Origin: Eubacteriales bacterium mix99
Lineage (GTDB): Bacteria > Bacillota > Clostridia > Caldicoprobacterales > DTU083
NCBI GenBank assembly: GCA_038396605.1
Contig: CP121690.1
Location: 1,582,500-1,646,499, forward strand
Reading direction: 5' to 3'
Length of the DNA: 64,000 bases
Shown here one piece after another: positions 1,811 to 18,987 of the stretch. The position numbers were made by a program, and so were the translations under genes. The notes beneath the pieces were generated by a model that was not told the DNA's origin, did not search any database, and was given only the letters and a program-made list of their open reading frames with translations. Position 1 is the stretch's first letter. Every line of letters begins with the position of its first letter.

Positions 1811-1826
1811 ATAGGGAGGAGTGTTT

Positions 1827-3233
1827 ATGGCAACAACGCGGCTGATGCCGCTGCATACCGGCAAGGGCCGGAACGTCGGAACAGCAATTAGCGACATCAT
1901 CGACTATGCAGAGAATCCGGAGAAAACGGATTACGGCAGGCTCATCACCGGCCACGAATGCGACAGCCGCACAGCCGACGCCGAGTTCCTTTTTTCCAAA
2001 CGGCAGTATGCCGCGCTCACCGGCAGAACGCGCGGTGCGGACGATGTGATTGCTTACCATCTCCGACAGTCCTTTGTCCCCGGCGAGGTCACGCCGGAGG
2101 AAGCAAACCGGATCGGCAGTGAGCTTGCCAAACGCTTTACAAACGGGAACCATGCTTTCATCGTCTGCACCCACATCGACAAACACCACATTCATAATCA
2201 TATCATTTGGAATTCCACGTCCCTCGACTGTACCCGGAAATTCCGAAACTTTTGGGGAAGTACCAGAGCCGTACGGCGGCTCAACGATACGCTGTGCATC
2301 GAGAACGGGTTGTCTATCGTGGAAAATCCAAAGCGTCGCGGCAAGAGTTACAACAAGTGGCTGGGCAATCAGGCAAAGCCCTCAAACCGGGAGCTTTTGC
2401 GTGTGGCAATAGACGCGGCTTTAGCTCAAAATCCAACCGATTTTGACGCGCTCCTGAAGCTCTTGCGGGACGCCGGATATGTAATCAAATCGGGGAAAAT
2501 TCCCGCCCTGCGCGGAAAGAATCAAAAGCGGTTTATCCGGCTGGATACGCTGGGCAGCGGCTACAGTGAAGCGGAGCTTCGGGCCGTTCTTTCCGGCGAA
2601 AAGGTACATCAGCCGCGCAAAAAAATCGTCCTGCCCGCGCCAAATAAAAAGATCAATTTGCTGGTGGATATTCAGGCCAAACTTCGCGCCGGAAAAGGCG
2701 TTGGTTACGAACGCTGGGCCAAGATATTCAACCTCAAGCAGATGGCTCAGACAGTAAATTATCTGACCGAGCACAACCTGTTGGAATACGATGCGCTGGC
2801 CGCTAAAACGGCTTTGGCAACCGCCCGGTACAATGAGCTTTCCACACAAATCAAAGCGGCTGAAAAACGGATGGCCGAGATCGCCGTTCTGAAAACACAG
2901 ATCATCAATTACGCCAAGACCCGCGACACCTATGTTGCCTATCGCAAGGCGGGGTATTCAAAAAAGTTTCTTTCGGAGCATGAGAGCGATATCCTGTTGC
3001 ACAAGGCGGCGAAGAAGTCATTTGATGAGCTGGGTGTAAAAAAACTCCCTACCGTCAAGAGTTTACAGGCCGAATATGCGGCGCTTCTGACAGAGAAAAA
3101 GGCGGCTTACGTTGATTATCGCAAGGCCCGCGATGAGATGAAAGAGCTGTTGACCGTGAAAGCAAACGTCGATCATCTGCTTGGCCCCGACAGGCGCGAA
3201 GCGGAGAAAGAAAAAGAGCATGGGCAGCGTTGA
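1827..3233 (+). CDS. mobilization relaxase (VirD2/MobA-like)
   Basis: DNA relaxase that would nick oriT and stay bound to the transferred strand. The N-terminal half carries the HUH metal-binding signature in HIDKHHIHNHIIW; the C-terminal half is rich in charged helices, as in Tn1549-type elements. I start it at ATG 1827 because GGGAGGA (1814-1820) lies six bases upstream; a GTG two codons earlier overlaps the Shine-Dalgarno. The frame is intact (468 residues). No mobC or oriT was recognised directly upstream, so this is probably a relic or cargo of an integrative element. Decayed relatives of this gene lie at about 24 kb and 61 kb. Confidence 0.88.
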   Translation: MATTRLMPLHTGKGRNVGTAISDIIDYAENPEKTDYGRLITGHECDSRTADAEFLFSKRQYAALTGRTRGADDVIAYHLRQSFVPGEVTPEEANRIGSELAKRFTNGNHAFIVCTHIDKHHIHNHIIWNSTSLDCTRKFRNFWGSTRAVRRLNDTLCIENGLSIVENPKRRGKSYNKWLGNQAKPSNRELLRVAIDAALAQNPTDFDALLKLLRDAGYVIKSGKIPALRGKNQKRFIRLDTLGSGYSEAELRAVLSGEKVHQPRKKIVLPAPNKKINLLVDIQAKLRAGKGVGYERWAKIFNLKQMAQTVNYLTEHNLLEYDALAAKTALATARYNELSTQIKAAEKRMAEIAVLKTQIINYAKTRDTYVAYRKAGYSKKFLSEHESDILLHKAAKKSFDELGVKKLPTVKSLQAEYAALLTEKKAAYVDYRKARDEMKELLTVKANVDHLLGPDRREAEKEKEHGQR

Positions 3234-3670: not shown

Positions 3671-5302
3671 TCAGGCATTCATAAACAGCTTGATGTCATC
3701 GTCAACTGTTCCCACGCCTGCGATTCCGAATTTTTCAATCAAGACCTTTGCCACGCTGGGCGACAGGAAACCCGGCAGCGTGGGGCCTAGGTGGATGTTC
3801 TTTACGCCCAGGGACAGCAGCGCCAGCAGGACGATGACGGCCTTTTGCTCGTACCACGCAATATTATAAACGATGGGCAGGTCGTTGATGTCGTCCAGCC
3901 CGAAAACTTCCTTGAGCTTGAGCGCGATGACAACAAGCGAATAGGAGTCGTTGCACTGCCCAGCGTCTAGAACTCTTGGAATTCCGTTGATGTCGCCCAG
4001 CTTCAGCTTATTATAGCGATACTTCGCGCAGCCAGCAGTGAGAATCACAGTGTCCTTCGGGAGCTTCTCAGCAAACTCGGTGTAGTATTCTCTGGACTTC
4101 ATGCGTCCGTCGCAGCCAGCCATCACAAAGAACTTTTTGATCGCACCGGATTTAACGGCGTCAACAATTTTGTCAGCCAGAGCAAACACCTGGTTATGGG
4201 CAAAGCCGCCGACGATGCTGCCGGTCTCAATTTCATCGGGTGTGGGAAGAGTCTTGGCAAGCTCGATGATTTTGGAAAAGTCTTTTTTGCCATTTTCGTC
4301 CGCTTCAATGTGCTTGCAGCCGGGATAGCCGGTGGAACCCGTGGTAAAGATTCTGCCCCGGACCTCTTCGCTTCTGGGCGGGACGATGCAGTTAGTGGTA
4401 AACAGGATGGGACCATGGAAGGATACAAATTCATCAAGCTGTTTCCACCAGGCGTTGCCGTAGTTGCCCGCAAAATTTTCGTATTTTTTGAAAGCCGGGT
4501 AATAATGGGCGGGCAGCATCTCGCTGTGGGTATACACATCCACGCCGGTGCCTTTGGTCTGCTCCAAAAGCTGTTCCAGATCGGTCAGGTCATGGCCGGA
4601 AATCAGAATTGCGGGATTTTTACGGACACCGATATCGACCTCAGTAATTTCAGGATTGCCGAACCTTGATGTGTTGGCTTCGTCCAGAAGGGCCATGGCC
4701 TTTACGCCGTATTCGCCGGTTTTCAGCGTCAGTGCGACCAGATCGTCAGCGGTGAGGGAATCGTTCAACGTTGCCGCAAGTGCTTCGTAGATAAAGGCGT
4801 TGATTGCCAAATCTTCTTTTCCAATGTTCTTCGCATGTTCGGCGTAGGCCGCCATGCCCTTAAGGCCGTATGTGATCATCTCGTGAAGAGACCGTACGTC
4901 CTCGTTTGCGGTTGACAGCACGCCGACGGTAGTGGCTTTTTCCAGCATAGACGCTCTGGAGCTTACCGTGAAAGTGGCCGCGTCGTGTAAACCTGCGGAA
5001 GCAACGGTGTCCCTTAGCTTATCTCTGATGGCGATCATTTTCATGATCTGCTTTTCAATAGAGCCGTCGTCGAAGTTCGCATTGGTAATGGTCATGAACA
5101 GGCTGCTGAGAACTTCATAATTTGTCTCGCCGAGGCTTTTGATATCGAGCTTCCCTTTGACTACGATCTGCGAGATGCCTTTGAGGGCATAAATCAGAAG
5201 ATCCTGAAGCTTCGCTACTTCTTCGGTTTTTCCGCAGACGCCGCGCACTGCGCAGCCCTTTCCTCCGGCGGTTTCCTGACACTGATAACAAAACATGCTC
5301 AT
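3671..5302 (-). CDS. hcp: hydroxylamine reductase / hybrid-cluster protein
   Basis: Hybrid-cluster protein of 543 residues, a cytoplasmic iron-sulfur/oxo enzyme known to reduce hydroxylamine and nitric oxide and linked to nitrosative stress. The N-terminal cluster motif is C5-x2-C8-x8-C17-x5-C23, typical of the short form in strict anaerobes. The C-terminal half keeps the hybrid-cluster ligand region ([29 protein letters not shown]). ATG 5302 follows AGGAGG at seven bases. It lies between rubredoxin and ferredoxin genes in one tight operon (gaps of about 20 bases), so both are likely redox partners. The divergent Crp/Fnr gene at 6642 probably regulates the operon. Confidence 0.96.
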
Positions 5303-5322
5303 TTTGCTTCCTCCTTTAAAAT

Positions 5323-5487
5323 TCAGTCTTCAACAGGTTCGAATTCGTCTTTGCCGACAAAACAAATCGGGCACTGCCAATCATCGGGTAAATCTTCAAA
5401 TGCCGTGCCGTGCGCGATGCCGCTGTCGGGATCACCAAGCGCAGGATCATAGATATACCCGCAGGGAATACACCTGTACTTTTTCAT
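5323..5487 (-). CDS. rubredoxin
   Basis: A 54-residue protein starting [15 protein letters not shown] and ending near [13 protein letters not shown]. The two CxxC pairs (CIPC and CPIC) are the four iron ligands, and GDPDSGI and the aromatic residues match the rubredoxin fold. The length is exactly that of the family. ATG 5487 follows GGAGGA. It sits 21 bases after the cupin gene and 20 bases before hcp, so it is co-transcribed and is a plausible one-electron donor for hydroxylamine/NO reduction or for oxygen and peroxide detoxification. Confidence 0.95.
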
Positions 5488-5508
5488 CCGAGTTCCTCCT
5501 TCGTTTTC

Positions 5509-5823
5509 TCAGCTTTTCGGAGCGGGCGCTTTTACGACAATTAGTTCCAGCGTTTCGTCATGCACATTTCTGACATTCATTTTAGTTTGAAACGGGATTT
5601 TCAGCAGAGTCCCGGCTTCGTACTCATGGATTTCCTGTTCATCAAGGTCGATGGAGAGCCGTCCGCGAATGACGGTCATATACACGTTTGAATTGGTAAA
5701 GTGTTCCGGCAATCCCTCGCCTTTGTTAAACACCATGTGAAGGTAATGAAGGTTTTCGTCAAATATGACTTTTTCTATCACTTTTTCATTGGTTTTGGAC
5801 AGTTTATACTCTTTTTCTATCAT
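5509..5823 (-). CDS. small cupin-domain protein
   Basis: Single-domain cupin of 104 residues. The core strands include HYLHMVFNKGEGLPEHFTNSN (motif 1 with His and Glu), VIRGRLSIDLDEQE, and a second half LLKIPFQTKMNVRNVHDET. Such proteins bind a metal or a small ligand; the reaction cannot be told from sequence. It is the second gene of the hcp operon, 15 bases after the iron-sulfur protein, so a role in the same stress response is likely. No signal peptide is seen. Confidence 0.8.
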   Translation of the reverse strand: MIEKEYKLSKTNEKVIEKVIFDENLHYLHMVFNKGEGLPEHFTNSNVYMTVIRGRLSIDLDEQEIHEYEAGTLLKIPFQTKMNVRNVHDETLELIVVKAPAPKS

Positions 5824-5838
5824 TATGATTACCTCCTG

Positions 5839-6543
5839 TCAATCAAGAATTTTCCCATCGGTTGAAATCGTCACTACTTGCCAAGGAATGAACTTGCCGC
5901 TGTTTTGAAGCGCCCTTTTTACCGCGTTTTCGATCCCGCCGCAGCAGGGGACTTCCATTCTGACGATTGTAACGCTTTTAATGTTGTTGTTTTTAATGAT
6001 CTCCGTGAGTTTGTCGCTGTAATCTCCTTCGTCAAGCTTGGGGCAGCCAATCAGGGTCACTTTGTTCCTGATAAACCTGTTGTGAAAATCGCCGTAAGCA
6101 TAGGCCGTACAGTCGGCGGCGACCAGTAGATTGGCGTCCGCGAAATACGGAGCATTGATCGGCGCAAGTTTGATTTGGACGGGCCACTGTGACAACTGGC
6201 TTTTGTTTTCGCTGATATTGGAATGGACGGCCTCACACTTATTTTCCCGATGGATGGATTTAGATTGTGTGCCAGGGCATCCGCAGGCCAACGTTTCTGC
6301 TTGCTGGCTCAGCTTGCTTTTCTTCACGGCGGCTTCATCGTATTCTTTCGCTTCGCGTTCTTCGAAACTGATAGCTGCTGTCGGGCAGGCCGGCAGGCAG
6401 TCGCCGAGGCCGTCGCAGTAATCGTCGCGGAGAAGCTTGGCCTTTCCGTTTATCATTCCGATTGCCCCTTCGTGACAGGCTTTTGCGCACAGTCCGCAGC
6501 CGTTGCATTTCTCTTCATCAATTCTGATAATTTTTCGAATCAT
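5839..6543 (-). CDS. iron-sulfur protein with N-terminal 2[4Fe-4S] ferredoxin domain
   Basis: Protein of 234 residues. Residues 1-60 form a two-cluster ferredoxin domain (CNGCGLCAKACHEGA and CDGLGDCLPACPTAA). After a Cys-rich linker (CGCPGTQSK) comes a C-terminal domain containing NLLVAADCTAYAYGDF, LIGCPKLDEGDYSDKL and RMEVPCCGGIENAV, a layout seen in clostridial ferredoxin-like genes beside hcp. It is the first gene of the operon with a GGGGGA ribosome site. Likely an electron-transfer partner of Hcp; the C-terminal domain may bind a further cluster. No function has been proven from sequence. Confidence 0.82.
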   Translation of the reverse strand: MIRKIIRIDEEKCNGCGLCAKACHEGAIGMINGKAKLLRDDYCDGLGDCLPACPTAAISFEEREAKEYDEAAVKKSKLSQQAETLACGCPGTQSKSIHRENKCEAVHSNISENKSQLSQWPVQIKLAPINAPYFADANLLVAADCTAYAYGDFHNRFIRNKVTLIGCPKLDEGDYSDKLTEIIKNNNIKSVTIVRMEVPCCGGIENAVKRALQNSGKFIPWQVVTISTDGKILD

Positions 6544-6614: not shown

Positions 6615-6628
6615 GTTGGAATTCCAAC
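6615..6628. promoter_or_regulatory. 14-base perfect palindrome, candidate Crp/Fnr operator
   Basis: GTTGGAATTCCAAC is a perfect palindrome 13 bases before the regulator start. On the minus strand a TAAACT hexamer (6592-6587) would give a start near 6580 for the hcp operon, with the palindrome centre about 41.5 bases upstream, the class II activator position of the Crp/Fnr family. Confidence 0.55.
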
Positions 6629-6641
6629 GAAAGAGGATTTT

Positions 6642-7382
6642 ATGAGAAATTATTTGGATGTATTGAAAACAGTACAATTATTCAGAGGCATTGAAGAGGC
6701 AGATTTGCAGCCGCTTTTGTTGTGCCTGGCCGCGAAATCGGTTCGTTTTGAAAAAGGGCAAACCGTATTTTCCAGCGGCGAAAGCATCGAAAAATTCGGC
6801 ATTGTTCTATCGGGACAGGTTCAGGTCGTTCAGGATGACTATTACGGAAACAGAAGCATCCTCGGAAAAATTGACATTGGAAATCTGTTCGGGGAATCCT
6901 TTGCCTGCGCGGAAATAAAAATGCTTCCGGTCAGAGTAATCACAACGACCGAAAGCGAACTGCTATTTATCGACTGTCACAGGCTTGCCGTTCCATGCGC
7001 CAGGGCGTGTGCTTTTCACGGCAAGCTCATTCAGAATATGCTAAGCATTATAGCCATGAAAAATATAGCGCTGACGCAGAAAATTGAATTTACGTCAAAG
7101 CGTACCACTCGCGAAAAGCTCCTTGCCTATCTCTCGGCCGAAGCGAAGAAAGCAGAAAACACCCGTTTCAGTATTCCTTTTAACCGGCAGGAACTCGCGG
7201 ACTACCTTTCCGTCGAGCGCAGCGCCATGTCAGCCGAGCTTTCAAAGCTCAGGGACGACGGCGTTCTAAGGTTTCACAAAAATCAGTTCGAGCTGTTACA
7301 AACGACCGGTGCAGTCGTCAGTCTCAATGATACCTCTGACCTTAATGATAAAATGAACTGTATTTTTCTTCGCAATGAATGA
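6642..7382 (+). CDS. Crp/Fnr-family transcriptional regulator
   Basis: Regulator of 246 residues: an N-terminal cyclic-nucleotide-binding-like beta barrel (about 15-130, with FEKGQTVFSSGE and LFGESFA), a long dimer helix, and a C-terminal winged helix (about 160-225) with recognition helix FNRQELADYLSVERSAMSAELSKL. Cysteines are present (LLLCLAA, FACAE, CHRLAVPCARAC), but the N-terminal four-cysteine motif of Fnr is not evident. It diverges from the ferredoxin-cupin-rubredoxin-hcp operon across 98 bases, as hcp regulators of anaerobes do, and likely controls it through the palindrome at 6615-6628. The effector (NO, redox or other) is not readable. Confidence 0.9.
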   Translation: MRNYLDVLKTVQLFRGIEEADLQPLLLCLAAKSVRFEKGQTVFSSGESIEKFGIVLSGQVQVVQDDYYGNRSILGKIDIGNLFGESFACAEIKMLPVRVITTTESELLFIDCHRLAVPCARACAFHGKLIQNMLSIIAMKNIALTQKIEFTSKRTTREKLLAYLSAEAKKAENTRFSIPFNRQELADYLSVERSAMSAELSKLRDDGVLRFHKNQFELLQTTGAVVSLNDTSDLNDKMNCIFLRNE

Positions 7383-7422: not shown

Positions 7423-8106
7423 TCAGGAGTCTATATGCAGTTTGTTCAGCAAATCGACATCCATGATTGTGATCTGTTTTGGATCATAGGTGATAAGGCC
7501 GTCTTTTCTCATTTTATTCAGCTCTCTTGACAGAGATGGCCTTTGGACCCCTATTTTTTCAGCCAGTTCTTTTTTGGTCATATTCAATTTAATAGTAGTT
7601 GATTTTTGTATGTGGCATTCATAAAGCAAAAACTCAATGATACATTGTCTGATTGTCTTTAACGTTAATATTTTAATCTTGCCTGTTAAAATAAGCGTTT
7701 TATCGGATACAGACTGGAGAAAGCCCTTCAGAAATTTACTGTTATCTTGGCACAGCTTCAAAGTCAATTCTTTCTTGATCTGGAGAATTTTCGCATCACA
7801 CTTTGCGGTGATTGTCATGGGATAAAAGTTTCTGTGTGAAAACAGGAGATTTTCTCCCATAACCTCACCGGCCGAAAAACTGCAAATCGTGAGCATATCC
7901 CCATTCGAATCAATTTTTTGTACCGAAACAGTCCCACTCAAAATGATGTCGAGGTTTTCACATTTTTCGTTCTGAAGATGTACCACGGAATCTTTGGTAT
8001 AAGTTCTGATATGGTAAAGATTATTTTGAAACAATTTATCTAACTCATCAGAAGAGAAGCAGTTAAATAGATCAACCGTTTCAAGTATCGAAAATAAATT
8101 ATCCAA
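7423..8106 (-). CDS. second Crp/Fnr-family transcriptional regulator
   Basis: Regulator of 227 residues, clearly a different paralogue from its neighbour. The beta-barrel sensor domain includes VVHLQNEKCENLDIILSGTV and FSAGEVMGENLLFS. The C-terminal winged helix has MTKKELAEKIGVQRPSLSRELNKM as recognition segment. Few cysteines are present and no Fnr-type cluster motif is seen. It converges with the first Crp/Fnr gene and diverges from the HgdB-like operon that begins near 8188. The palindrome between them makes it the probable activator of that operon. The effector is unknown. Confidence 0.9.
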   Translation of the reverse strand: MDNLFSILETVDLFNCFSSDELDKLFQNNLYHIRTYTKDSVVHLQNEKCENLDIILSGTVSVQKIDSNGDMLTICSFSAGEVMGENLLFSHRNFYPMTITAKCDAKILQIKKELTLKLCQDNSKFLKGFLQSVSDKTLILTGKIKILTLKTIRQCIIEFLLYECHIQKSTTIKLNMTKKELAEKIGVQRPSLSRELNKMRKDGLITYDPKQITIMDVDLLNKLHIDS

Positions 8107-8123
8107 AATAGCACACCTTTCTT

Positions 8124-8151
8124 GAAAGGAGTAACCATGGTTACTCCTTTC
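8124..8151. promoter_or_regulatory. 28-base perfect palindrome, candidate Crp/Fnr operator
   Basis: Each half is GAAAGGAGTAACCA and its complement, with no mismatch over 28 bases. Its centre (8137.5) lies about 41.5 bases before the start expected from TATAAT at 8167-8172, the class II activator position. It begins 18 bases from the start codon of the divergent regulator, so it may also control that gene. Confidence 0.72.
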
Positions 8152-8166
8152 ACTTTTGTTTTTGAT

Positions 8167-8172
8167 TATAAT
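8167..8172 (+). promoter_or_regulatory. -10 box of the HgdB-like operon
   Basis: Perfect TATAAT. No good -35 lies at the normal distance; the region where it would be is covered by the right arm of the 28-base palindrome, as expected for an activator-dependent promoter. Transcription would start near 8179. Confidence 0.6.
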
Positions 8173-8187
8173 ACAAAAGTATCAAAG

Positions 8188-9387
8188 ATGAAAGGGGCCC
8201 TAAATGTTTTGGATAAAAAATATGAGGATCAGATCCTGAAATCGATGGATGCCGTGCGCGAAAAAGCACCAGATATCCCTCTTGATTATTTTTTCGATAT
8301 CTGGAAGGGATTCTGGTTTGGTGAACAAAAGACAGAAATGCCGTCCATAGCGGTATTGGGGACTGGTATTCCCGAATTATATATCCGGGCTACCGGCGCG
8401 AAACCGTTATTTTTGCTTGGCGGTAATTACTTTACGGATCAATACGCAGAACATGTGTTTCCGCAGATTTCGGACCCTGTGTTGAAATCTGCAAGCAGCA
8501 TTCTCTTTTCCGAACAGCTTGCCTGCATGAGGGATATTACCGCGATGGTTGTTCCGGTGAGCAACGCAGATACGCGTAAAGTTCTGCCTTATTTCAAGGA
8601 TCTGGGGCATCCGGTAATCGTGATGGAGGAGGAGCCGTTTCTGGATTCAAAAGCCACATCACGGTTTCGGTCGTCACAGATGGATTTAGTTATGGAGCTG
8701 CAAAAGCTCACACACCGACCGATCACCGCCAAGAGCATCCGAACTGCCGCGAAGCAAATCACCAGCGCACATGATGCCATCCGGCGCCTTAAGACTATGG
8801 ATATTCCGCAAATCGCAAAGGATTTTATCAAGCAGACCTATTATCTTGCTCCTGACATTCAGGAATGGACCGACCGCGTGAATGGATTCGCCGAGGAAAA
8901 CCTGAAGCCGATGCCCGAAAACCGGTCCCATCTGCTGCTGATCGGGTCACCGATCTTTTTCCCGAATGTCAAAATCCCGACTGTATTACATAATGTCGGC
9001 ATCCGAAATTATGAGAATCACTGTGGAGTCCCTGATCCGGAGGATTACACAGAGCTTATGGAGCATGATCCTTCCTCGCTAAATTCCATGTTCAGGGATC
9101 TGAATGAACTTCATTACAGATCGGCACAAAACGATATTGCTCGCGCACTGTGTTCTGATACTTCTTTCCTGCAAAACGCCAGCGGCGTCATCTACCATCT
9201 GCTCAAGGGGCAACTCATGTATGCTTATGAAGCGAATCGGATTGAAAAGGCCGCCATCAGGGCGGGGATTCCGTTCGTCTGCATTGAAACGGATTATACG
9301 AATGCCGATATCGAACAGATCAGAATTCGCCTGGAAGCTTTTTCTGAACTGCTGATGCAGACCGGAAGACTGTCCGCAGCAATATGA
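8188..9387 (+). CDS. HgdB-like (2-hydroxyacyl-CoA dehydratase D family) paralogue lacking cluster cysteines
   Basis: Protein of about 399 residues with the two-domain fold of 2-hydroxyacyl-CoA dehydratase subunits and double-cubane proteins (LGTGIPELYIRATGAKPLFLLGG; SHLLLIGSPIFFPNVKIPTVL; GVIYHLLKGQLMYAYEANRIEKA; C-terminal VCIETDYTNADIEQIRIRLEAF). Aligned by eye with the paralogue at 10545, the positions of C98, C128 and C359 hold Asp, Asn and Gln, so it probably cannot bind the cluster in the same way and may be a structural or substrate-binding partner. The start is uncertain. The palindromic operator excludes an upstream TTG at 8122; ATG 8188 lies only about nine bases after the predicted transcription start; TTG 8209 has AAAGGGG upstream. 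First gene of the operon. Confidence 0.82.
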   Translation: MKGALNVLDKKYEDQILKSMDAVREKAPDIPLDYFFDIWKGFWFGEQKTEMPSIAVLGTGIPELYIRATGAKPLFLLGGNYFTDQYAEHVFPQISDPVLKSASSILFSEQLACMRDITAMVVPVSNADTRKVLPYFKDLGHPVIVMEEEPFLDSKATSRFRSSQMDLVMELQKLTHRPITAKSIRTAAKQITSAHDAIRRLKTMDIPQIAKDFIKQTYYLAPDIQEWTDRVNGFAEENLKPMPENRSHLLLIGSPIFFPNVKIPTVLHNVGIRNYENHCGVPDPEDYTELMEHDPSSLNSMFRDLNELHYRSAQNDIARALCSDTSFLQNASGVIYHLLKGQLMYAYEANRIEKAAIRAGIPFVCIETDYTNADIEQIRIRLEAFSELLMQTGRLSAAI

Positions 9388-9436: not shown

Positions 9437-9835
9437 ATGTCATTCAGCTTTCTTTTACAAGAACTGCATCGAAAAGTTATGGAAAAAACAAAAGCGGCAA
9501 AAGCACACCGCGGAATAATAACCATCGTGATTGCCGCCATTCTTGTTACAATCGTTTTTTTCGCTGTCAAAGCAAATCTTGCGCAGAATCCAGCAGGCCG
9601 GACATTAACTCCCGTTAGCAGCACTACTCAAAGCGACGAAAGCACGACAATTCCAAACGGCGGTAATCAAAACGAAACCGCTATGCAGGCTAAGACGCTC
9701 AAGCGTATCGAAAATGTTGCCTCTATTTTGGGTATTGCCGTGTTGACATCGGGAGGCATGACAGTCTATTACAGAAAAAAGAAAAACCGCGTTAAACCGC
9801 TTCCGGTACTGCGGAGTGAGGAGGAAACACATTGA
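9437..9835 (+). CDS. small membrane protein of unknown function
   Basis: Protein of 132 residues with a basic N-terminus, a strong transmembrane segment at about residues 27-45 (IITIVIAAILVTIVFFAV), a Ser/Thr/Asn-rich linker of about 45 residues, and a second weaker hydrophobic segment (IASILGIAVLTSGGMTVYY region) followed by basic residues. Both ends would then be cytoplasmic with the linker outside. AAGGAGG lies at good distance before ATG 9437. Its stop overlaps the start of the NapH-like gene (TTGA), which implies coupled translation and a shared membrane complex. No family was recognised. Confidence 0.75.
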   Translation: MSFSFLLQELHRKVMEKTKAAKAHRGIITIVIAAILVTIVFFAVKANLAQNPAGRTLTPVSSTTQSDESTTIPNGGNQNETAMQAKTLKRIENVASILGIAVLTSGGMTVYYRKKKNRVKPLPVLRSEEETH

Positions 9836-10545
9836 AGCAGCGTAAAATTACAGCTTTTCGTATCACATGTCTTCTGATTGCCGCTGCCGTGCTCGCTTTC
9901 CTTGGAAGCAGATACCGGATTATTATTTTATTGCTCAGCATCTTCAGTGCTCTAGTTTTTGGGCGTCTCTGGTGCGGCTATGTTTGTCCGCTGGGATTTT
10001 ATCAGGAACTACTTTCAATGCTTCGGAAAAAACTGCATATTCCGACGTTCCACGTGTCATTAAAGGTGAAATCCTATTTGCGTCCGCTGAAATGGATCAT
10101 ACTTGTATATTTTCTGGCCAGCGTTTTGTTTTTTGGGCTGCGCCCAGTTATGTATATACGGCCCGACCTTTCCTTCAGCAGCGCAGATATGAGTATCTAT
10201 AAAATCATTATTGTCGGTATTGTAACGGGAATTTGTTTTCTGAAAGAAAGGGCGTTCTGTAAATACTGCCCGCTAGGGACACTCCGGGGCTTTGTCAATA
10301 AAATCAGCTTCGGAAAAATTAAAAAGGACGGCACCGCGTGTACACACTGCCGCGCTTGTCTTGAATGTTGTCCAATGGATATCCGCTCCATTTATGAAGA
10401 ACGCAACAAATCCGATATCACTCACTCGGATTGTATCTACTGTATGAAATGCATTGAGGCATGCCCGGAGCAGGATGTGCTTTCCTTTACCCTGTTTGGG
10501 AAAAAGGTATTGTCCTCCAAACGTAATAGTAAGCAGGTGAAATAA
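9832..10545 (+). CDS. NapH/CcoG-like membrane [4Fe-4S] ferredoxin
   Basis: Membrane polyferredoxin of 237 residues. Several transmembrane helices fill the first 150 residues (about 9-25, 29-45, 86-105, 120-137). Two membrane-side motifs, LWCGYVCPLG and FCKYCPLGTLRG, are typical of the NapH/MauN family, and two [4Fe-4S] motifs follow: CTHCRACLECCP and CIYCMKCIEACP. Such proteins pass electrons between a membrane donor and soluble partners. The start is TTG 9832 with GAGGAGG upstream, overlapping the previous stop; its own stop overlaps the next ATG (TAATG). Sandwiched between HgdB-like genes, it probably supplies electrons to the activase or the reductase. Confidence 0.88.
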   Translation: MKQRKITAFRITCLLIAAAVLAFLGSRYRIIILLLSIFSALVFGRLWCGYVCPLGFYQELLSMLRKKLHIPTFHVSLKVKSYLRPLKWIILVYFLASVLFFGLRPVMYIRPDLSFSSADMSIYKIIIVGIVTGICFLKERAFCKYCPLGTLRGFVNKISFGKIKKDGTACTHCRACLECCPMDIRSIYEERNKSDITHSDCIYCMKCIEACPEQDVLSFTLFGKKVLSSKRNSKQVK

Positions 10546-11777
10546 TGGAAGAGCGTACATTAGAACGTTATAAGCGAAATATTTCGCGTGTTTCGGCTGG
10601 TTCACTGAAACAGTTGACATCCATAGGAGATGTTCCCAAGGGGCTTGAATATTTTACGAATGTTCTTAAAAGAACATTCGTCGATTTTGAAAAGGATGAC
10701 AACGAGTACATAGGTAGCTACTGCGTGATGGTGCCGGATGAAATGATATACGCATTCGGCTACAGGCCGCTGCGCTTATGCGCTGGGCACAGCGTTGCGG
10801 CGATGATCGGGGATGAGATCGTCCCGCGTGATGCCTGCCCAGTCCTGAAGGCAACTGCCGGTTTTCACGCAATGCGCGTCATGCCGATCTATCAGCAGTG
10901 CAGGCTGGCAGTGCTGCCGATGACCTGCGATGGCAAGCGAAAAAGCGCTGCGCTTTTGTCGCAGTACCTTCCGGTTATTCCCTTGCCGATTGAAATGGAT
11001 AAGTCGGAGGAACGCTTTGCGCAGAACCTGCAAAACATGCATGCTCTCATGAAAAGTATTTCCAAAGAAACGGGCCGCAGGTTCTCCAACCGGAAACTGA
11101 TTGAATCCTGCAAAAGCATTAATGCGGCACAGCAGGAAGCATATAAACTATACGGCTTGCTCTCATCCGACAATCCGCCTGTCACGGGTTCACAGGTTAT
11201 GGCTGTGCTGAACAGCTATTGCTATGATACGCCGGAAAGCTGGGCGCAGCACGCGAAAATACTAAATGCCGGACTTTCCCAAAAAGCAGCTGCCATGCAG
11301 CCTTTGAAAAGGAAAAAGCCGCGTATCTTTATCGCAGGCTCTCCCATTACATTTCCAAACTATAAACTGCCGTTTTTGATGGAAGGTCTGGGGGCACAGA
11401 TTGTCGGAGACGAGACGTGTATGGCGGGGAGGCTTTTATATGACCCCGTTGTTCCTGATGAGTACAGTACAGACGGCATCTTACGTGCGCTTACGGCGCG
11501 ATATGTCTGCGCATGTACGTGTCCGGTATTCGAGCAGACGGACGATCGCCTCAGCAGTCTCACAGAAAAACTGCGTCAGACGAAAGTGGAGGGCGTTATT
11601 TATCATATCCTGCGCGGCTGCACGCCTTACGACTTCGAATTGTCCATGGTGGAACAGCTGGCAGATAAGCTTGATATTCCGGTTCTGCGTGTGGAAACAG
11701 ATTTCTCCGCCGAGGATGCAGAACAGGTAAAAATCCGTCTGGAAGCGTTTGTTGAATTGATAGAACAAAGGAGATAA
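10545..11777 (+). CDS. HgdB-like / double-cubane-type cluster protein
   Basis: Protein of 410 residues of the 2-hydroxyacyl-CoA dehydratase D family, nearest in character to YjiM and double-cubane cluster proteins. Cysteines at 98 (RDACPVLKATAG), 128 (PMTCDGKRK) and 359 (LRGCTPYDFE) have the spacing of the three cluster ligands in dehydratase subunits. Further cysteines at 60, 79, 119, 292, 322, 324 and 326 could complete a second cubane. The family performs ATP-primed reduction or radical dehydration after one-electron injection by an HgdC-type activase, which is encoded four bases downstream. No CoA-transferase or acyl-CoA gene is nearby, so a dehydratase role is not favoured. The substrate is unknown. 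Confidence 0.88.
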   Translation: MEERTLERYKRNISRVSAGSLKQLTSIGDVPKGLEYFTNVLKRTFVDFEKDDNEYIGSYCVMVPDEMIYAFGYRPLRLCAGHSVAAMIGDEIVPRDACPVLKATAGFHAMRVMPIYQQCRLAVLPMTCDGKRKSAALLSQYLPVIPLPIEMDKSEERFAQNLQNMHALMKSISKETGRRFSNRKLIESCKSINAAQQEAYKLYGLLSSDNPPVTGSQVMAVLNSYCYDTPESWAQHAKILNAGLSQKAAAMQPLKRKKPRIFIAGSPITFPNYKLPFLMEGLGAQIVGDETCMAGRLLYDPVVPDEYSTDGILRALTARYVCACTCPVFEQTDDRLSSLTEKLRQTKVEGVIYHILRGCTPYDFELSMVEQLADKLDIPVLRVETDFSAEDAEQVKIRLEAFVELIEQRR

Positions 11778-11781
11778 ATAC

Positions 11782-12591
11782 ATGGGAAACTATTATGTGG
11801 GACTGGATGCCGGTTCGACATACCTGAAGGCGGCATTGATAAAGGATAACTGTGTTTTAGGCGCTGAACTTCTTCCAACAGGCATCGACTGTGAGGAAAC
11901 TGCGGCCAAATTGCTGGAAAAGATCTATGCGAGCCAAAGTATCACACGCAATGATATCGCCGTAATCACCGCAACCGGATACAGCAGGCGCAGTATCGGC
12001 CTCGCAGATGCCACAATTTCAGAAATCACCGCTCATGCCTGCGGTGTACAATTGACAGCCCCTGAAAACGTGCATCCGCGCTTGATCATTGATATCGGAG
12101 GCCAAGACAGCAAGATCATCAGCCTTGGCCCCGATGGACATATCGTGAATTTTACAATGAATGATAAATGCGCCGCTGGAACAGGAAAGTTCTTGGAGGT
12201 CGTGGCTGATCTTCTGGAAACTACCATTGATCAGATTGCTTCGCTTGCGAAAGAGAGTACAGATCCCTGTCAAATCAACAGCACCTGCGCCGTTTTTGCC
12301 CAGACGGAAGTGATCTCTCTTCTTGCTCAAAAGAAAAGCCGAAGTGATATCCTTGCAGGTATGCATATAGCCATGGCAAACCGTATCGCCAAAATGGCGC
12401 GTAAATATAAGTCGGATGGCGATGTGATGATGACCGGAGGCGGCGCTAACAATGATGCTCTTCGATCTGCGTTGGAAGATGAACTGATGTGCGATATTTA
12501 CAAGGCAAATTATCCGCAGTTCAACGGCGCAATCGGAGCTGCTTTAATTGGCATGCATAATACTGAAAAAATGCAGGTCCAAATTTCTTAA
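11782..12591 (+). CDS. HgdC/BcrA-family activase ATPase
   Basis: ATP-dependent electron activator of 269 residues in the ASKHA fold. Phosphate-binding motifs are GLDAGSTYLKA (residues 7-17) and DIGGQDSKI (104-112). The bridging [4Fe-4S] cluster of the homodimer uses C130 (DKCAAGTGKF) and C169 (NSTCAVFAQTE). The helix-cluster-helix geometry lets ATP hydrolysis drive one electron to a very low potential in the partner protein. It directly follows the cysteine-rich HgdB-like gene, the usual order of reductase and activator. It is the last gene of the operon; the riboswitch-terminator region follows within 30 bases. Confidence 0.93.
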   Translation: MGNYYVGLDAGSTYLKAALIKDNCVLGAELLPTGIDCEETAAKLLEKIYASQSITRNDIAVITATGYSRRSIGLADATISEITAHACGVQLTAPENVHPRLIIDIGGQDSKIISLGPDGHIVNFTMNDKCAAGTGKFLEVVADLLETTIDQIASLAKESTDPCQINSTCAVFAQTEVISLLAQKKSRSDILAGMHIAMANRIAKMARKYKSDGDVMMTGGGANNDALRSALEDELMCDIYKANYPQFNGAIGAALIGMHNTEKMQVQIS

Positions 12592-12618
12592 TTTAGCATA
12601 TAAAATTAAATATCAGAA

Positions 12619-12695
12619 AAGGCAAACTGACCGAAAGGCAGGGGCATAAAGCCAAGAGTCTAAGGTAAATAAACGTACTATGATAGTCTGGTTGC
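12619..12695 (+). ncRNA. c-di-GMP-I (GEMM) riboswitch
   Basis: The aptamer signature is visible in order: GGCAAAC at 12621, a stem capped by the GAAA tetraloop (12633-12636), GGGGCATAAAGCC (12641-12653), the receptor strand TCTAAGG (12659-12665), its partner CTATG (12678-12682), and closing GGTTGC (12690-12695) that pairs with GCAAAC. The tetraloop and its 11-nucleotide-type receptor are both present. A strong terminator follows five bases later, so transcription control is likely. The downstream gene is the small KTR protein at 12782. Confidence 0.8.
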
Positions 12696-12699
12696 AAAA

Positions 12700-14377: not shown

Positions 14378-14914
14378 GGGAGCAACTTTTGCCCTGAAGA
14401 TGAAAAGGTTTATGAGGGATATGTTTTTATTCTTCGCTGAACCTTGAAAATCGAATAAGGGACAAGCCGGATACATACCGCAAACAGCGGCATACAGGGA
14501 GCCGGGCGGCGGGTGCGCCACGATCTTTCCTTACGCGGGAGAGGGTGATTGGATATCAGCGTAACGGAAAGGGAGCGAAAAACACCAGCGCCGCAGGCAG
14601 AGCAGCGTCTTTCAGACGCAAGGCAGCTCTGCGGCAATTATCTGTATGTAATGAAACTTCCGTTCAGTCACAGTCCGAGCGTGATAAAACCGTCGCAGGC
14701 AATGAGAACGGCCCGCCATCATCATGGGGGGAGGTGCAATTCCTATGGTAACAGGTACGCCGCCTGTTCGTCCGGAATGTCTGTAAACATAAAAGCAAAT
14801 CGAAACAAAGGGACAGCCGCGCCGAAACGTGCCAGCCGTATGGCTGCTCAAACCTGTATCGGCGCGGCTGTCATCTTTTATATTGGATATGGTTTGAAAT
14901 GGAGGTGTCTCTTT
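14378..14914. other. gene-free interval with nested hairpins
   Basis: No protein gene with a credible start is seen. Hairpin-forming segments are GCAGAGC...GCTCTGC (about 14597-14633) and a large nested structure at 14812-14872. Intervals of this kind between the sigma-like and recombinase genes may carry the element attachment site or a structured leader; neither could be proven. Confidence 0.4.
14812..14872. repeat. cruciform-like nested inverted repeat
   Basis: GACAGCCGCGCCGA (14812-14825) pairs perfectly with 14859-14872, and inside the loop CAGCC (14833-14837) pairs with GGCTG (14842-14846). It lies 40 bases before the tnpW-like gene. It could be a terminator without T tract, a recombinase binding site or an attenuator. 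Confidence 0.55.
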
Positions 14915-15225: not shown

Positions 15226-16890
15226 ATGATCGAAAAAACATACAACGTGGGCATCTACTGCCGACTGTCCAACGACGATGAGCGCGACGGCGAATCCGCC
15301 AGCATTGAAAATCAAAAGCTGCTGCTCCAACGGTATGTCCGTGAGCGCGGCTGGAATGAAATCGACGTATATACCGATGACGGTTATTCTGGAACGAATT
15401 TTCAACGCCCCGGTGTCCAGCGGTTGATTGAGGATGCCAAGGCAAAGCGCATCAACGTGATTTTGGTCAAAGACCTGTCGCGTTTCGGCAGAAACTACAT
15501 TGAATTCGGGCAGTACACGGATTACCTGTTTCCTTCCATCGGGTGCCGCTTCATCGCGCTGAACAACGGCATCGACACGGAAAGCACCAACGGCAGCACC
15601 GATGTCATGTGCTTTTTGAACTTATTTAACGAGTTCTACAGCCGGGATACCAGCAAAAAGGTCAAGGCCGTGAAGAAAGCGTGTGCGGAGGATGGGAAAT
15701 TCATGGGTACTTACCCCGCCTATGGGTACAAGCGCGATCCTGCGGATAAGCACCATCTTGTGATCGACGAAGAAACCGCGCCGGTTGTGCGCCGGATCTT
15801 CGCCATGCGCTGTCAGGGCATGGGGTTTTGGTCCATTGCCGTGGCACTCAACGAGGAAGGAATTCAGCCGCCCGGAGTGCTGTACTATCAGCGCAAGGGG
15901 CGAAGCGACCCGCGTAAGGTCAACCACCAGTGGGCCAATACCACCGTTCAGGTTATCCTCCGAAACGAGGTCTACATCGGCAATATGGTGCAGGGCAAAC
16001 ACGGGACGCTCTCGTATAAATCCCGCAAGCTCATTGTAAAGCCGGAGGATGAATGGATACGGGTGGAAAACACTCACGAAGCAATCGTTCCCCGCGACGT
16101 GTGGGACACGGTTGTTAGCATCGACCAAAAGAAAGTGCGGAAATCTCCCACCGCCGCAGGCAGAAAAAGCATTTTCACCGGCCTTGTCTACTGCGCCGAC
16201 TGCGGCTTCAAAATGCGGTCCCACAATGAGACGCGCAAGTACAGCGACGGCCATACGCAGGTATTTCACTCCTTCATCTGCGGCAACTACAGCCGCAGCG
16301 GGAAAACCGCCTGCACTGTCCACATGATTTATGAGGATGTCTTGAGTAAGCTCGTGTTGGCGGATATCCGGGAAAAAGCTCAGTACGCGGAGTACGACCG
16401 GGACCGGCTTGTGGCGCAGATCACCCGTCTGAAGGACAAGGAAACCCGCAGCCGCCTGTCCTCTTATGAACAGGAGCTGAAAACGGCAACCGTCCGCGTG
16501 TCGGAGCTGGAAAAACTGATGTAGAATCTCTATGAGGACAAATGCAAAGGCGTTATCCCGCAGACCGTGTTTCAGACCCTGATGCAGAAATATGAATCCG
16601 AGCGCGCAGAAAAATCTGCTGTCCTCCCGGAACTGGAACAAAAGGTCCGGGCCCAGCGTGGGAACAGGCAGGACGCGGACCGCTGGACAGATATCATCCG
16701 TCGCTATACAGAAATCACGGAGCTGGATGAAACCATCCTGTTTGAACTGGTGGACCGCATTGAAGTGGGCGAAACCCAAAAGCAGGGCGACCTTCGCATC
16801 TGCGACATCAAGGTGCATTACCGTTACGTCGGGAATGTGGACGAGGCGCTGACGCAGGAAAAGAGGGAGCGTTATGAAAAAGCTGTATAA
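15226..16890 (+). pseudogene. large serine recombinase 1, interrupted by an in-frame TAG
   Basis: Large serine recombinase of about 554 codons. The resolvase domain has the catalytic serine in GIYCRLSNDD (Ser15) and RFGRNYIEFGQY; a recombinase domain and a zinc ribbon (YCADCGFKM...CGNYSRSG) follow, then a coiled coil. At 16522-16524 the codon is TAG where the next recombinase suggests a continuing helix (LMxNLYEDK); CAG to TAG is the simplest change. The frame then continues without a break to TAA at 16890, overlapping recombinase 2 by 17 bases. Translation would stop after residue 432, removing part of the coiled coil, unless the amber codon is read through. Confidence 0.85.
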
Positions 16891-18532
16891 GGTCGGCATC
16901 TACTGCCGCCTGAGCGTGGATGACGCTTCCAACTCCGCGAAAGCGAAAAGCTACATCCCCGCCGACGAATCCGCCAGTATTGAAAATCAGCGGGAAATCC
17001 TCTCCAAATTTGTGATGCTGAACGGATGGACGGAGGTGAAAACTTACGCCGACGACGGTTACAGCGGCGGCAATTTTCAGCGTCCCGGTTTTCTGGAGAT
17101 GCTGGAGGACGCCCGGAAAGGCGTTATCAATCTGATCCTCGTCAAAGACCTGTCCCGGCTGGGACGCGACTTTGTAGAGGTGGGCCGGTACACGGATGTT
17201 GTATTCCCATCCCTTGGGTGCCGCTTCGTTTCCGTGCTGGACTGTCTGGACACCGAGGGCGACAACACCGACATGCTCCACTTCCGCAGCCTCATGAACG
17301 ACTACCATTTGAAGGATTTAAGCAACAAAATCAAGTCCGTGCGGTACGCCAAAATGAAAAGCGGGCAGTTTCTTTCCGCTTACGCCCCTTACGGCTACCG
17401 CAAAAGCGAGGATGATAAGCACAAGCTGGTGATCGACGAATACGCCGCCGCTGTGGTGCGCAGGGCCTTTTCCATGCGGCGGGACGGCGCGGCCTATGGC
17501 AAGATTGCCGCCGCTTTCAATCAGGACGGCATCCTTTCCCCGCGTGGGTATTGGCACAGCCTGTACGGAACCGGCGAATGCCGGTATTCTCAAATTTGGA
17601 CCTGCACAGCCGTAAAAAACCTTCTAAACAGCGAGGTCTACCTTGGAAATCTGCTGATGAACTATACCGGCTCCCGTTCCTATAAGGACGGTACGATGAT
17701 TTACAAGCCGGAATCCGAGTGGATACGGTGCGAGGCAACCCACGAGGCAATCGTCACCCCGGAAGAATGGGAGGCCGTGCAAAAGATCAATCAGGCTGCG
17801 AAGCGCCGCGTTGAGAATAACCGAAAGCCGACCCGCAGCCTTTTCTCCGGCAAGCTGGTCTGCGCAGACTGCAAAGGTCCCCTTGGCGCAAGTACAGAAA
17901 CACACCGCCGTAAAAACGGCAGCGTAAAACGCTATGTTTCCTACTGCTGTGAGAGATATATCCAGTCGGGCCGGAGTATTTGTTCCTGGCACCGTATCTA
18001 TGAAATAACGCTGGCGCAGATCGTTATGGCTGAAATCAAAGCGGACGCCGAGGCCGTCACTCTGGATGAGGCCGGTGTGTTGGAGAAACTCAAAAGCTGG
18101 ATGGCACAGTATGACGAACAGCGCATGGCGAATACCCGTCAGGACATCGGCAAACTGCGCCGCCGCTTGCAGGAATTGGAGAGCATGACCGCAAAGCTCT
18201 ATGAGGACAAGGTGAGCGGGGCGGTCAGCGAAAGCACCTTCTCGGTGCTGATAGCAAAAAACGAACAGGAGCGCCTTATCAAAGCGGAACGCCTCGACAC
18301 GTTCCTGTCCGCAGTTAAAAAATCCGATCAGGATGCCGCCGACATTCAGCATTGGGCGGCGACGATTCGCAAATATCTGAACTTACAGGAACTCGACCGG
18401 GAGACCATCGACGAGCTGATAGACCACATTGAAATTGGCGAACGCACCGTTGTTGACGGAAAGCGCAGGCAGGATGTAAAGGTGTTCTATCGTTTTGTCG
18501 GACAGGTCAACCGGGAACTTGATATGCAATGA
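16874..18532 (+). CDS. large serine recombinase 2, intact
   Basis: Site-specific recombinase of 552 residues that would integrate or excise the mobile element. The catalytic serine is Ser14 in GIYCRLSVDD; NLILVKDLSRLGRDF belongs to the resolvase domain. The zinc ribbon is CADCKGPLGAS...CCERYIQSGRSICSW. A coiled coil around residues 400-480 is the directionality module of this enzyme class. ATG 16874 lies inside the end of recombinase 1 with GAGGGAG upstream, so translation is coupled. Tandem recombinases of this kind are known in Tn1549-like and related elements. It may still be active. Confidence 0.93.
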   Translation: MKKLYKVGIYCRLSVDDASNSAKAKSYIPADESASIENQREILSKFVMLNGWTEVKTYADDGYSGGNFQRPGFLEMLEDARKGVINLILVKDLSRLGRDFVEVGRYTDVVFPSLGCRFVSVLDCLDTEGDNTDMLHFRSLMNDYHLKDLSNKIKSVRYAKMKSGQFLSAYAPYGYRKSEDDKHKLVIDEYAAAVVRRAFSMRRDGAAYGKIAAAFNQDGILSPRGYWHSLYGTGECRYSQIWTCTAVKNLLNSEVYLGNLLMNYTGSRSYKDGTMIYKPESEWIRCEATHEAIVTPEEWEAVQKINQAAKRRVENNRKPTRSLFSGKLVCADCKGPLGASTETHRRKNGSVKRYVSYCCERYIQSGRSICSWHRIYEITLAQIVMAEIKADAEAVTLDEAGVLEKLKSWMAQYDEQRMANTRQDIGKLRRRLQELESMTAKLYEDKVSGAVSESTFSVLIAKNEQERLIKAERLDTFLSAVKKSDQDAADIQHWAATIRKYLNLQELDRETIDELIDHIEIGERTVVDGKRRQDVKVFYRFVGQVNRELDMQ

Positions 18533-18564
18533 AAACAGGCCGACTTACAGGTTTTGAGTATTTT

Positions 18565-18987
18565 TTAGCACGACGTTCCCGAATGATGTATGCTCTTCAT
18601 GATGTTGCGGAAGGGGGTGAAATCATCATCGTCTCTGGCGCTGTCCACGCCATCGTTGACGGCAATAAGCCGGACGTTTTTCTGCCGCAGAATCTCCATG
18701 ATTTGGCCGACTTTGAGATAATCGCGCCCCAAGCGGCTCATATCCTTCACAATGACAGCCTCTACATGTCCTGCCTCAACTTCCTCCATCATGGCCGTAA
18801 ATCCGGGACGGTCGAACCGGGTTCCGGAAATACCGTCGTCGGTAAAATGGGTCGGGCGCGGAAAACCGTTTCGCCGGGCATATTCCTCCAGCATCTGCTT
18901 TTGGTGGGATATGCTGTTGCTTTCGCCCTGTAACTCGTCATCACGGGATAATCGTTCATATAGCGGGGTGATTTTTCCGTTACTCAT
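18565..18987 (-). pseudogene. 5' fragment of a third serine recombinase
   Basis: Encodes MSNGKITPLYERLSRDD (catalytic Ser14) through FTPFRNIM, the complete resolvase core of a Tn1549-type recombinase, then diverges at about 18590 into unrelated residues and stops. GGAGGG precedes ATG 18987. The break lies where family members continue with NEWYARDTS, so the 3' three quarters are missing. It points toward the tandem recombinases, consistent with an insertion or deletion junction at 18533-18590. Confidence 0.8.

Follow-up and report, generated by a model that had tools for sequence, protein, structure and literature searches.

A perfect palindrome as the probable class II operator of a Crp/Fnr regulator divergent from a DCCP-like reductase operon

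Introduction

In the window, by which we mean the whole 64-kb stretch of DNA that was analysed, a perfect palindrome lies between a gene for a Crp/Fnr-family regulator and a divergent operon for a DCCP-like iron-sulfur reductase (Table 1). What does this palindrome do, and for which of the two genes? At class II CRP/FNR promoters of E. coli, the site is centred at about -41.5 and a -35 element is absent. An earlier note on this DNA had proposed the same arrangement for the reductase operon, and had suggested that the unusual length of the palindrome might serve high-affinity binding. Here we follow up these proposals by comparing orthologous operons, measuring promoter spacing across related loci and relating the site to the recognition helix of the adjacent regulator.

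Results

A 30-bp palindrome with an HcpR2-type core

The palindrome is perfect and centred at 8137.5, as the earlier note had stated, but its length is 30 bp and not the 28 that were claimed. The number of perfect 30-bp palindromes expected in the 64-kb window is 6e-5, and when the window was simulated 60 times with a first-order Markov model, the longest palindrome measured 22 bp. No other perfect palindrome in the window exceeds 14 bp, a length that three more reach. Its core, AGTAACC-NN-GGTTACT, exactly matches GTAACnnnnGTTAC, which the available text of Rodionov et al. (2005, PMC1274295) gives as the HcpR2 consensus site.

GTAACC-N2-GGTTAC occurs as a single copy in the 3.13-Mb genome. The exact GTAACNNNNGTTAC form is found twice genome-wide, against about 3.3 copies expected from the composition of the window, and 30 places in the same genome fit it with one mismatch. 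The copy number of GTAACNNNNGTTAC is therefore no evidence, and the case rests on position and conservation.

Table 1. Features of the divergent regulator-reductase locus, in window coordinates.
Feature	Position	Strand	Remarks
Crp/Fnr-family regulator	7423-8106	-	227 aa; TTG start; helix QRPSLSRE; Pfam PF13545 (HTH_Crp_2), PF00027 (cNMP_binding)
Putative Shine-Dalgarno of regulator, AAGAAAGGTG	8114-8123	-	touches palindrome; read from the sequence
Perfect 30-bp palindrome, TGAAAGGAGTAACCATGGTTACTCCTTTCA	8123-8152		centre 8137.5
Conserved operator core AGTAACC-AT-GGTTACT, HcpR2-type Crp/Fnr site	8130-8145		centre 8137.5; identical in L016, L017, L021
-10 hexamer TATAAT	8167-8172	+	first base 29.5 bp from site centre; predicted start ~8179
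Putative Shine-Dalgarno of first reductase gene, GAAAGGGG	8190-8197	+	inferred by reading the sequence
First reductase gene, DCCP-like, HGD-D family	8209-9387	+	PF06050; likely start TTG 8209
Small protein without family	9437-9835	+	probably membrane-bound (read from the sequence)
NapH/MauN-like ferredoxin-type protein	9832-10545	+	TIGR02163 93 bits, below cut-off 213; PF12801, PF13237
Second DCCP-like reductase subunit	10545-11777	+	PF06050; NF040772 270 bits, below 350-bit cut-off
Acyl-CoA dehydratase activase-type ATPase	11782-12591	+	TIGR00241 240 bits, over cut-off 125; PF01869

The two reductase subunits match PF06050 and score 94 and 270 bits with the double-cubane reductase model NF040772, both under its 350-bit cut-off. 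Directly after the activase gene lies a c-di-GMP-I riboswitch (12611-12699, plus strand, Rfam 60.3 bits), with no clear adjoining gene downstream in the ORF list. A further Rfam match, to pemK RNA, covers 14648-14748 (52.5 bits).

The core is conserved at orthologous operons

Searches with the first reductase protein in 13, 30 and 391 genomes, in overlapping sets, gave matches in 2, 2 and 51, mostly distant. A reductase alignment searched in 206 genomes around G300 matched in 10 with E up to 1e-20, and two close relatives came from a contig search. AGTAACC-NN-GGTTACT is present in all four other orthologous operon loci (L016, L017, L021 and L051), with the centre pair AT in the first three and GT in L051. 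This conservation upstream of orthologous operons, which the earlier note had proposed as a check, extends to another family with L021 (the same locus as L050 and L067), whose first reductase protein is only 41% identical. L017, L021 and L051 show the divergent regulator; the L016 contig begins inside the site, and its regulator is therefore out of view.

Beyond 8 bp on either side of the centre, and thus outside the 16-bp core, the symmetry of L017 is interrupted (24 bp left), and L021 and L051 show none. This speaks against the suggestion that the extra length is a high-affinity device; the unusual length is peculiar to this one site and not conserved.

Five operons (L022, L024, L052, L053 and L054) have no divergent Crp/Fnr gene in the fetched flank and, in a search confined to the GTAACNNNNGTTAC form with at most one mismatch, no such site near the operon start. 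L053 has a one-mismatch GTAACNNNNGTTAC about 0.9 kb upstream, within another gene, and the 3.5-kb contig L023 carries neither site nor divergent regulator. A point against is the distant reductase homologue L027, where an exact GTAACNNNNGTTAC is found about 1.1 kb past the match. The fragment L055 and more distant homologues were not counted in this tally. A plasmid search returned one 25%-identical protein, and the viral contigs searched gave no match.

The pattern of conservation also bears on the possibility that the palindrome acts as RNA, as an intrinsic terminator or a leader hairpin with a T-rich tract. The predicted hairpin has a 13-bp stem at -18.4 kcal/mol (z -4.46, with 0 of 200 shuffles as good) and a terminator-like score with the tail CTTTTGTTTT. 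However, conservation of the stem stops at the 16-bp core, and some homologous sites, such as that of L070, have no T-run. A terminator could moreover act only on read-through from outside, because the operon's own -10 comes only after the tail. With conservation confined to the 16-bp core, we rejected an RNA role as very improbable.

The first reductase gene likely starts downstream of palindrome and TATAAT

The palindrome contains an ATG (8137), and a different reading takes the string AAAGGAG-TAACC-ATG for a ribosome-binding site with its start codon. This ATG shares the frame of the first reductase gene, and the TATAAT would then lie inside the gene. The frame is indeed open from 8122, and the same ATG is open in L016; in L021, however, the palindrome ATG leads within a few codons to a stop, and the start of the gene is at 1477, preceded by its own AAGGAGG. 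Protein alignment favours TTG 8209: MDKKYEDQILKS aligns with the ATG start of the 41%-identical L021 protein. We rejected the start within the palindrome on the L021 stop and the protein alignment, and regard it as scarcely credible. Another upstream codon, ATG 8188, is AAG in both L016 and L017. The first reductase gene thus likely starts at TTG 8209, at neither ATG 8137 nor ATG 8188, and with this start both the palindrome and the TATAAT are upstream of the gene.

A fixed 29.5-bp distance from site centre to -10

The TATAAT was found at 8167, where the earlier note had put it; its first base lies 29.5 bp from the palindrome centre. The -35 element that the note had reported missing is indeed lacking: at 17-bp spacing, the corresponding position (8144-8149) reads CTCCTT, which matches TTGACA at one of six bases, and the promoter scan gave no sigma-70 promoter pair at the reductase promoter.

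The spacing was surveyed in loci collected through the regulator. A four-regulator alignment, A3, found matches in 160 of 391 class genomes (E up to 1e-25) and in 93 of 398 phylum genomes (E up to 1e-30). The class set comprises 93 loci, namely the best 90 places together with L017, L051 and L002; the best 90 places are 30 initial loci, in which the window stands for its own L068, and 60 more stretches. A second set of 28 new loci came from the phylum search, for a total of 121, of which 117 were reached via regulator homology. For each locus, we scanned from 330 bp before the regulator gene to 20 bp into it for every perfect 5+5 inverted repeat with a 4-base gap, its sequence left unspecified. 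Loci entered the spacing survey by regulator and site, not by promoter, and were read from the site centre toward the divergent gene.

In the class set, TAnnnT starts at +29.5 in 50 of 51 sites, where the hexamer matches TATAAT at five or more of six bases in 35 and at all six in 24. For the 42 non-redundant sites (less than 75% identical), the same counts at +29.5 are 41, 32 and 21; across 1000 shuffles, the maximum at any offset was 11 for TAnnnT and 9 for at least 5/6. TTGACA at 5/6 or better had no offset before 73.5 with two or more matches in these 42 sites. The second set has TAnnnT at +29.5 in 22 of 23 sites, which brings the pooled count to 72 of 74 regulator-linked sites at exactly 29.5 bp; the two misses, L156 and L192, each have a -10 at 30.5.

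When the best TATAAT match anywhere between 22.5 and 39.5 is taken, it falls at 29.5 in 34 of the 51 class-set sites and elsewhere in 17: at 27.5 in 11 (L051 and ten cupin loci), at 24.5 in two, at 34.5 in two, and at 32.5 and 30.5 in one each. The orthologue in G300 has its best match at 34.5 and TAGTAT at 29.5. The half-length of the palindrome also varies among these 51 sites; the mode is 8, and the value of 15 in the window is the longest.

As a -10 hexamer occupies -12 to -7, a hexamer at +29.5 places the site at -41.5, the class II position. The Crp/Fnr geometry put forward in the earlier note is therefore seen both in the window and across 72 of 74 sites, and there is strong support for the prediction that the divergent regulator activates the operon in the class II manner. 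The available parts of PMC5701242 and PMC13370916 contain no analysis of -10 spacing.

The divergent regulator and its own gene

The divergent gene had been named a Crp/Fnr regulator, and its Pfam domains, cNMP_binding and HTH_Crp_2, agree. In A3, residues R189, P190 and R194 correspond to CRP positions 180, 181 and 185, and the Pro at position 181 (P190) is invariant across the four rows.

In 40 of the 51 loci, the modelled regulator start follows the site centre at a distance of 8-39 bp. Because the site abuts the ribosome-binding site of the regulator, the regulator promoter would lie across or beyond the site, and operator binding should therefore block transcription of the regulator gene. 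Autorepression through the operator is likely on this basis. The same two observations, the contact with the Shine-Dalgarno sequence and the short distance to the start, could be taken further, to mean that the palindrome is mainly an autoregulatory repressor site and the reductase operon is activated in some other way. Pure autoregulation, however, would not explain why the -10 of the target stands at a fixed 29.5 bp from the site, and we consider it improbable.

By profile, the best solved structure for the regulator is PDB chain 9day (E 2.5e-27), which we take to be P. gingivalis HcpR. The two proteins differ at the heme ligands. According to the available text of PMC12750200, these are Met68 and His149 in P. 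gingivalis HcpR, with His149 doubted by the paper itself. In our alignment, the two positions are Lys64 and Lys145 of the window regulator, both invariant in A3. Because lysines replace the ligands, heme sensing in the manner of P. gingivalis HcpR appears unlikely for this regulator. The N-terminal cysteine cluster by which FNR proper binds its Fe-S centre was not found: the window regulator has one Cys in its first 48 residues, and its L021 and L051 counterparts have none there.

Residue 181 of the regulator agrees with the half-site

In the class set, loci with Pro-181 carry GTAAC in 19 of 54 cases and GTTAC in none, while loci with Thr-181 carry GTTAC in 31 of 37 and GTAAC in none; GTTAC accompanies Ser-181 in one of two. 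The second set gives GTAAC for Pro-181 in 11 of 11 loci, seven of them near-identical (L185-L189, L191 and L193), and GTTAC for Thr-181 in 8 of 11 and for Ser-181 in 4 of 6. Pooled, 74 of 121 loci have one of the two half-sites, and in all 74 it agrees with residue 181 (GTAAC with Pro in 30; GTTAC with Thr in 39 and with Ser in 5); 46 of these 74 were examined after the pattern had been noticed, the GTTAC form having first been seen in the initial 30 loci. Near-identical rows also occur as L070-L072 and L099-L100. Neither half-site occurs in the searched stretch of the remaining 47 loci (35 Pro, 9 Thr and 3 Ser).

Specificity must depend on more than residue 181, because L140, L143 and L152 (Pro) and L148 (Thr) carry GTATC repeats (GTATCnnnnGATAC) instead. 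Their helices read SRPTLSRE, SRPSMSRE or SRTTLSRE, and they are perhaps a third specificity class. A QRPSLFRE clade with Pro-181 among Thr-181 relatives (L139, L142, L144, L145 and L149) has no GTAAC or GTTAC in the searched stretch.

In a 74-row tree built with the recognition residue masked, residue and motif each need at least two changes, and the two independent pairs both agree (sign test p 0.5, with significance out of reach at this number). With so few changes per trait and only two such pairs, relatedness could explain much of the 74/74 count. A 93-row quick tree places the window clade (window, L017, L051, L067 and L069) inside a mostly Thr/GTTAC clade of 48 with support 99. In the 74-row tree the five-row window group is not resolved, and L167 and L168 (Pro/GTAAC) lie within a Thr/Ser group (99/97). 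As no root was inferred, the direction of trait change is our own reading.

In CRP structures, position 181 lies opposite the middle base pair of the half-site, at which GTAAC and GTTAC differ. The available text of PMC1274295 has CRP positions 180, 181 and 185 contacting the site, and reports that positions 180 and 181 correlate with site bases, that GTAACnnnnGTTAC of HcpR2 is tied to Pro at position 181, and that the motifs of proteins with Ser or Gln at 181 are different. Neither a GTTACnnnnGTAAC class nor a -10 spacing analysis appears in that text, and a Thr/GTTAC rule was not found in the literature available to us, including parts of PMC1274295 and PMC545781, which is weak evidence of its absence.

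Thr-181 relatives often stand next to a gene for a cupin or for a NapH-like ferredoxin. In L157 two ArsP_1 permease genes come after the cupin gene, and one of them also encodes a ferredoxin domain (Pfam was run on L157 and L165 only), and proteins similar to those of L157 were spotted by eye in L158, L160 and L164. Such neighbours hint at a putative redox or metalloid stress signal. A permease-ferredoxin operon, CTC0897-0898, accompanies C. tetani CTC0896 in the available text of PMC1274295, a relation that is a lead only.

We think it somewhat more probable than the contrary that, within the RxSLSRE branch, Pro-181 reads GTAAC and Thr- or Ser-181 reads GTTAC at a rigid 29.5-bp spacing to the -10, and that the window lineage apparently reverted from Thr/GTTAC to Pro/GTAAC jointly in regulator and operator, with all its sampled members except L069 controlling a DCCP-like reductase and not a cupin/permease operon.

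Other regulators and hcp loci in the same genome

Close to the palindrome, an hcp operon (3671-6543, minus strand) has its own divergent Crp/Fnr regulator at 6642-7382, with helix ERSAMSAE. Between the two is a perfect 14-bp palindrome, GTTGGAATTCCAAC (6615-6628), and on the hcp side TAAACT starts 29.5 bp from its centre. This may be the same geometry with another half-site; in L017, the stretch examined contains no perfect palindrome of at least 10 bp. The hcp and reductase genes are flanked by a putative relaxase-like ORF (1821-3233) and several putative serine-recombinase-like ORFs (within 15226-18933), so that this part of the window may belong to mobile elements or adjoin them.

A second hcp locus (L166 4088-6594, near 709835 of the same genome) comprises an hcp gene and, upstream of it, a Pro-181 Crp/Fnr gene with helix RPSVSRE. 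The other exact GTAACNNNNGTTAC of the genome, as GTAACATATGTTAC, lies between this regulator and the second hcp gene, with TGaTAGTCT, read by hand, at 29.5 bp from it.

The RPSVSRE regulator could bind the window site as well. A related possibility is that another Pro-181 Crp/Fnr protein, for example the one at L166 4088-4774, takes the place of the divergent regulator at this site in the cell. Both regulators have RPSxSRE helices and both adjoining sites fit GTAACNNNNGTTAC. Yet site and divergent regulator co-occur across families, the site varies with residue 181 of the adjacent regulator, and the flanks differ, with GTAACC at the window site and GTAACA at the second hcp. Use by another protein is, in our estimate, decidedly improbable.

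Discussion

The palindrome is very probably the operator of the divergent Crp/Fnr regulator, through which the reductase operon would undergo class II activation and the regulator gene probable autorepression. In the mechanism we propose, a regulator dimer would read the half-sites AGTAACC and GGTTACT, the arms outside ±8 bp being dispensable. When its signal is present, the bound dimer would be centred at about -41.5 of the reductase promoter, with its perfect -10 and no -35, and would recruit RNA polymerase; the same binding event would probably repress the regulator gene. What the sequence comparison shows is the palindrome, its conservation, the spacing to the -10, the pairing of residue and base and the co-occurrence of site and regulator; binding itself, activation and autorepression are inferred.

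Our preferred reading is that of an ordinary class II Crp/Fnr operator serving an HcpR2-like regulator; the comparative evidence behind this prediction is unusually clean. As in the HcpR2 regulon described in the available text of PMC1274295, the site is GTAACnnnnGTTAC, the regulator has Pro-181 and, as is often the case there, stands beside its probable target. Unlike in that regulon, where hcp and frdX are controlled, the window site precedes a DCCP-like reductase operon. The arrangement also resembles that of C. difficile hcpR with frdX-hcp, again a Crp/Fnr regulator beside a redox target operon; in the available text of PMC12915319, hcpR regulates frdX-hcp, and only that pair has a putative site among the differentially expressed genes. 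From the class II CRP/FNR promoters of E. coli the window differs in its half-site, and its transcription start is a predicted one.

Across the loci, one amino acid of the regulator and one base of its site appear to be linked with unusual clarity, in an otherwise well-known switch. The agreement of residue and base makes Crp/Fnr specificity open to a straightforward swap test, and residue 181 may serve as a predictor of targets for many unnamed regulators. For the uncharacterised DCCP-like operon, the proposed assignment of regulator, operator and promoter is firm and testable, and would give a handle on when the reductase is made, and thus on what the enzyme is for.
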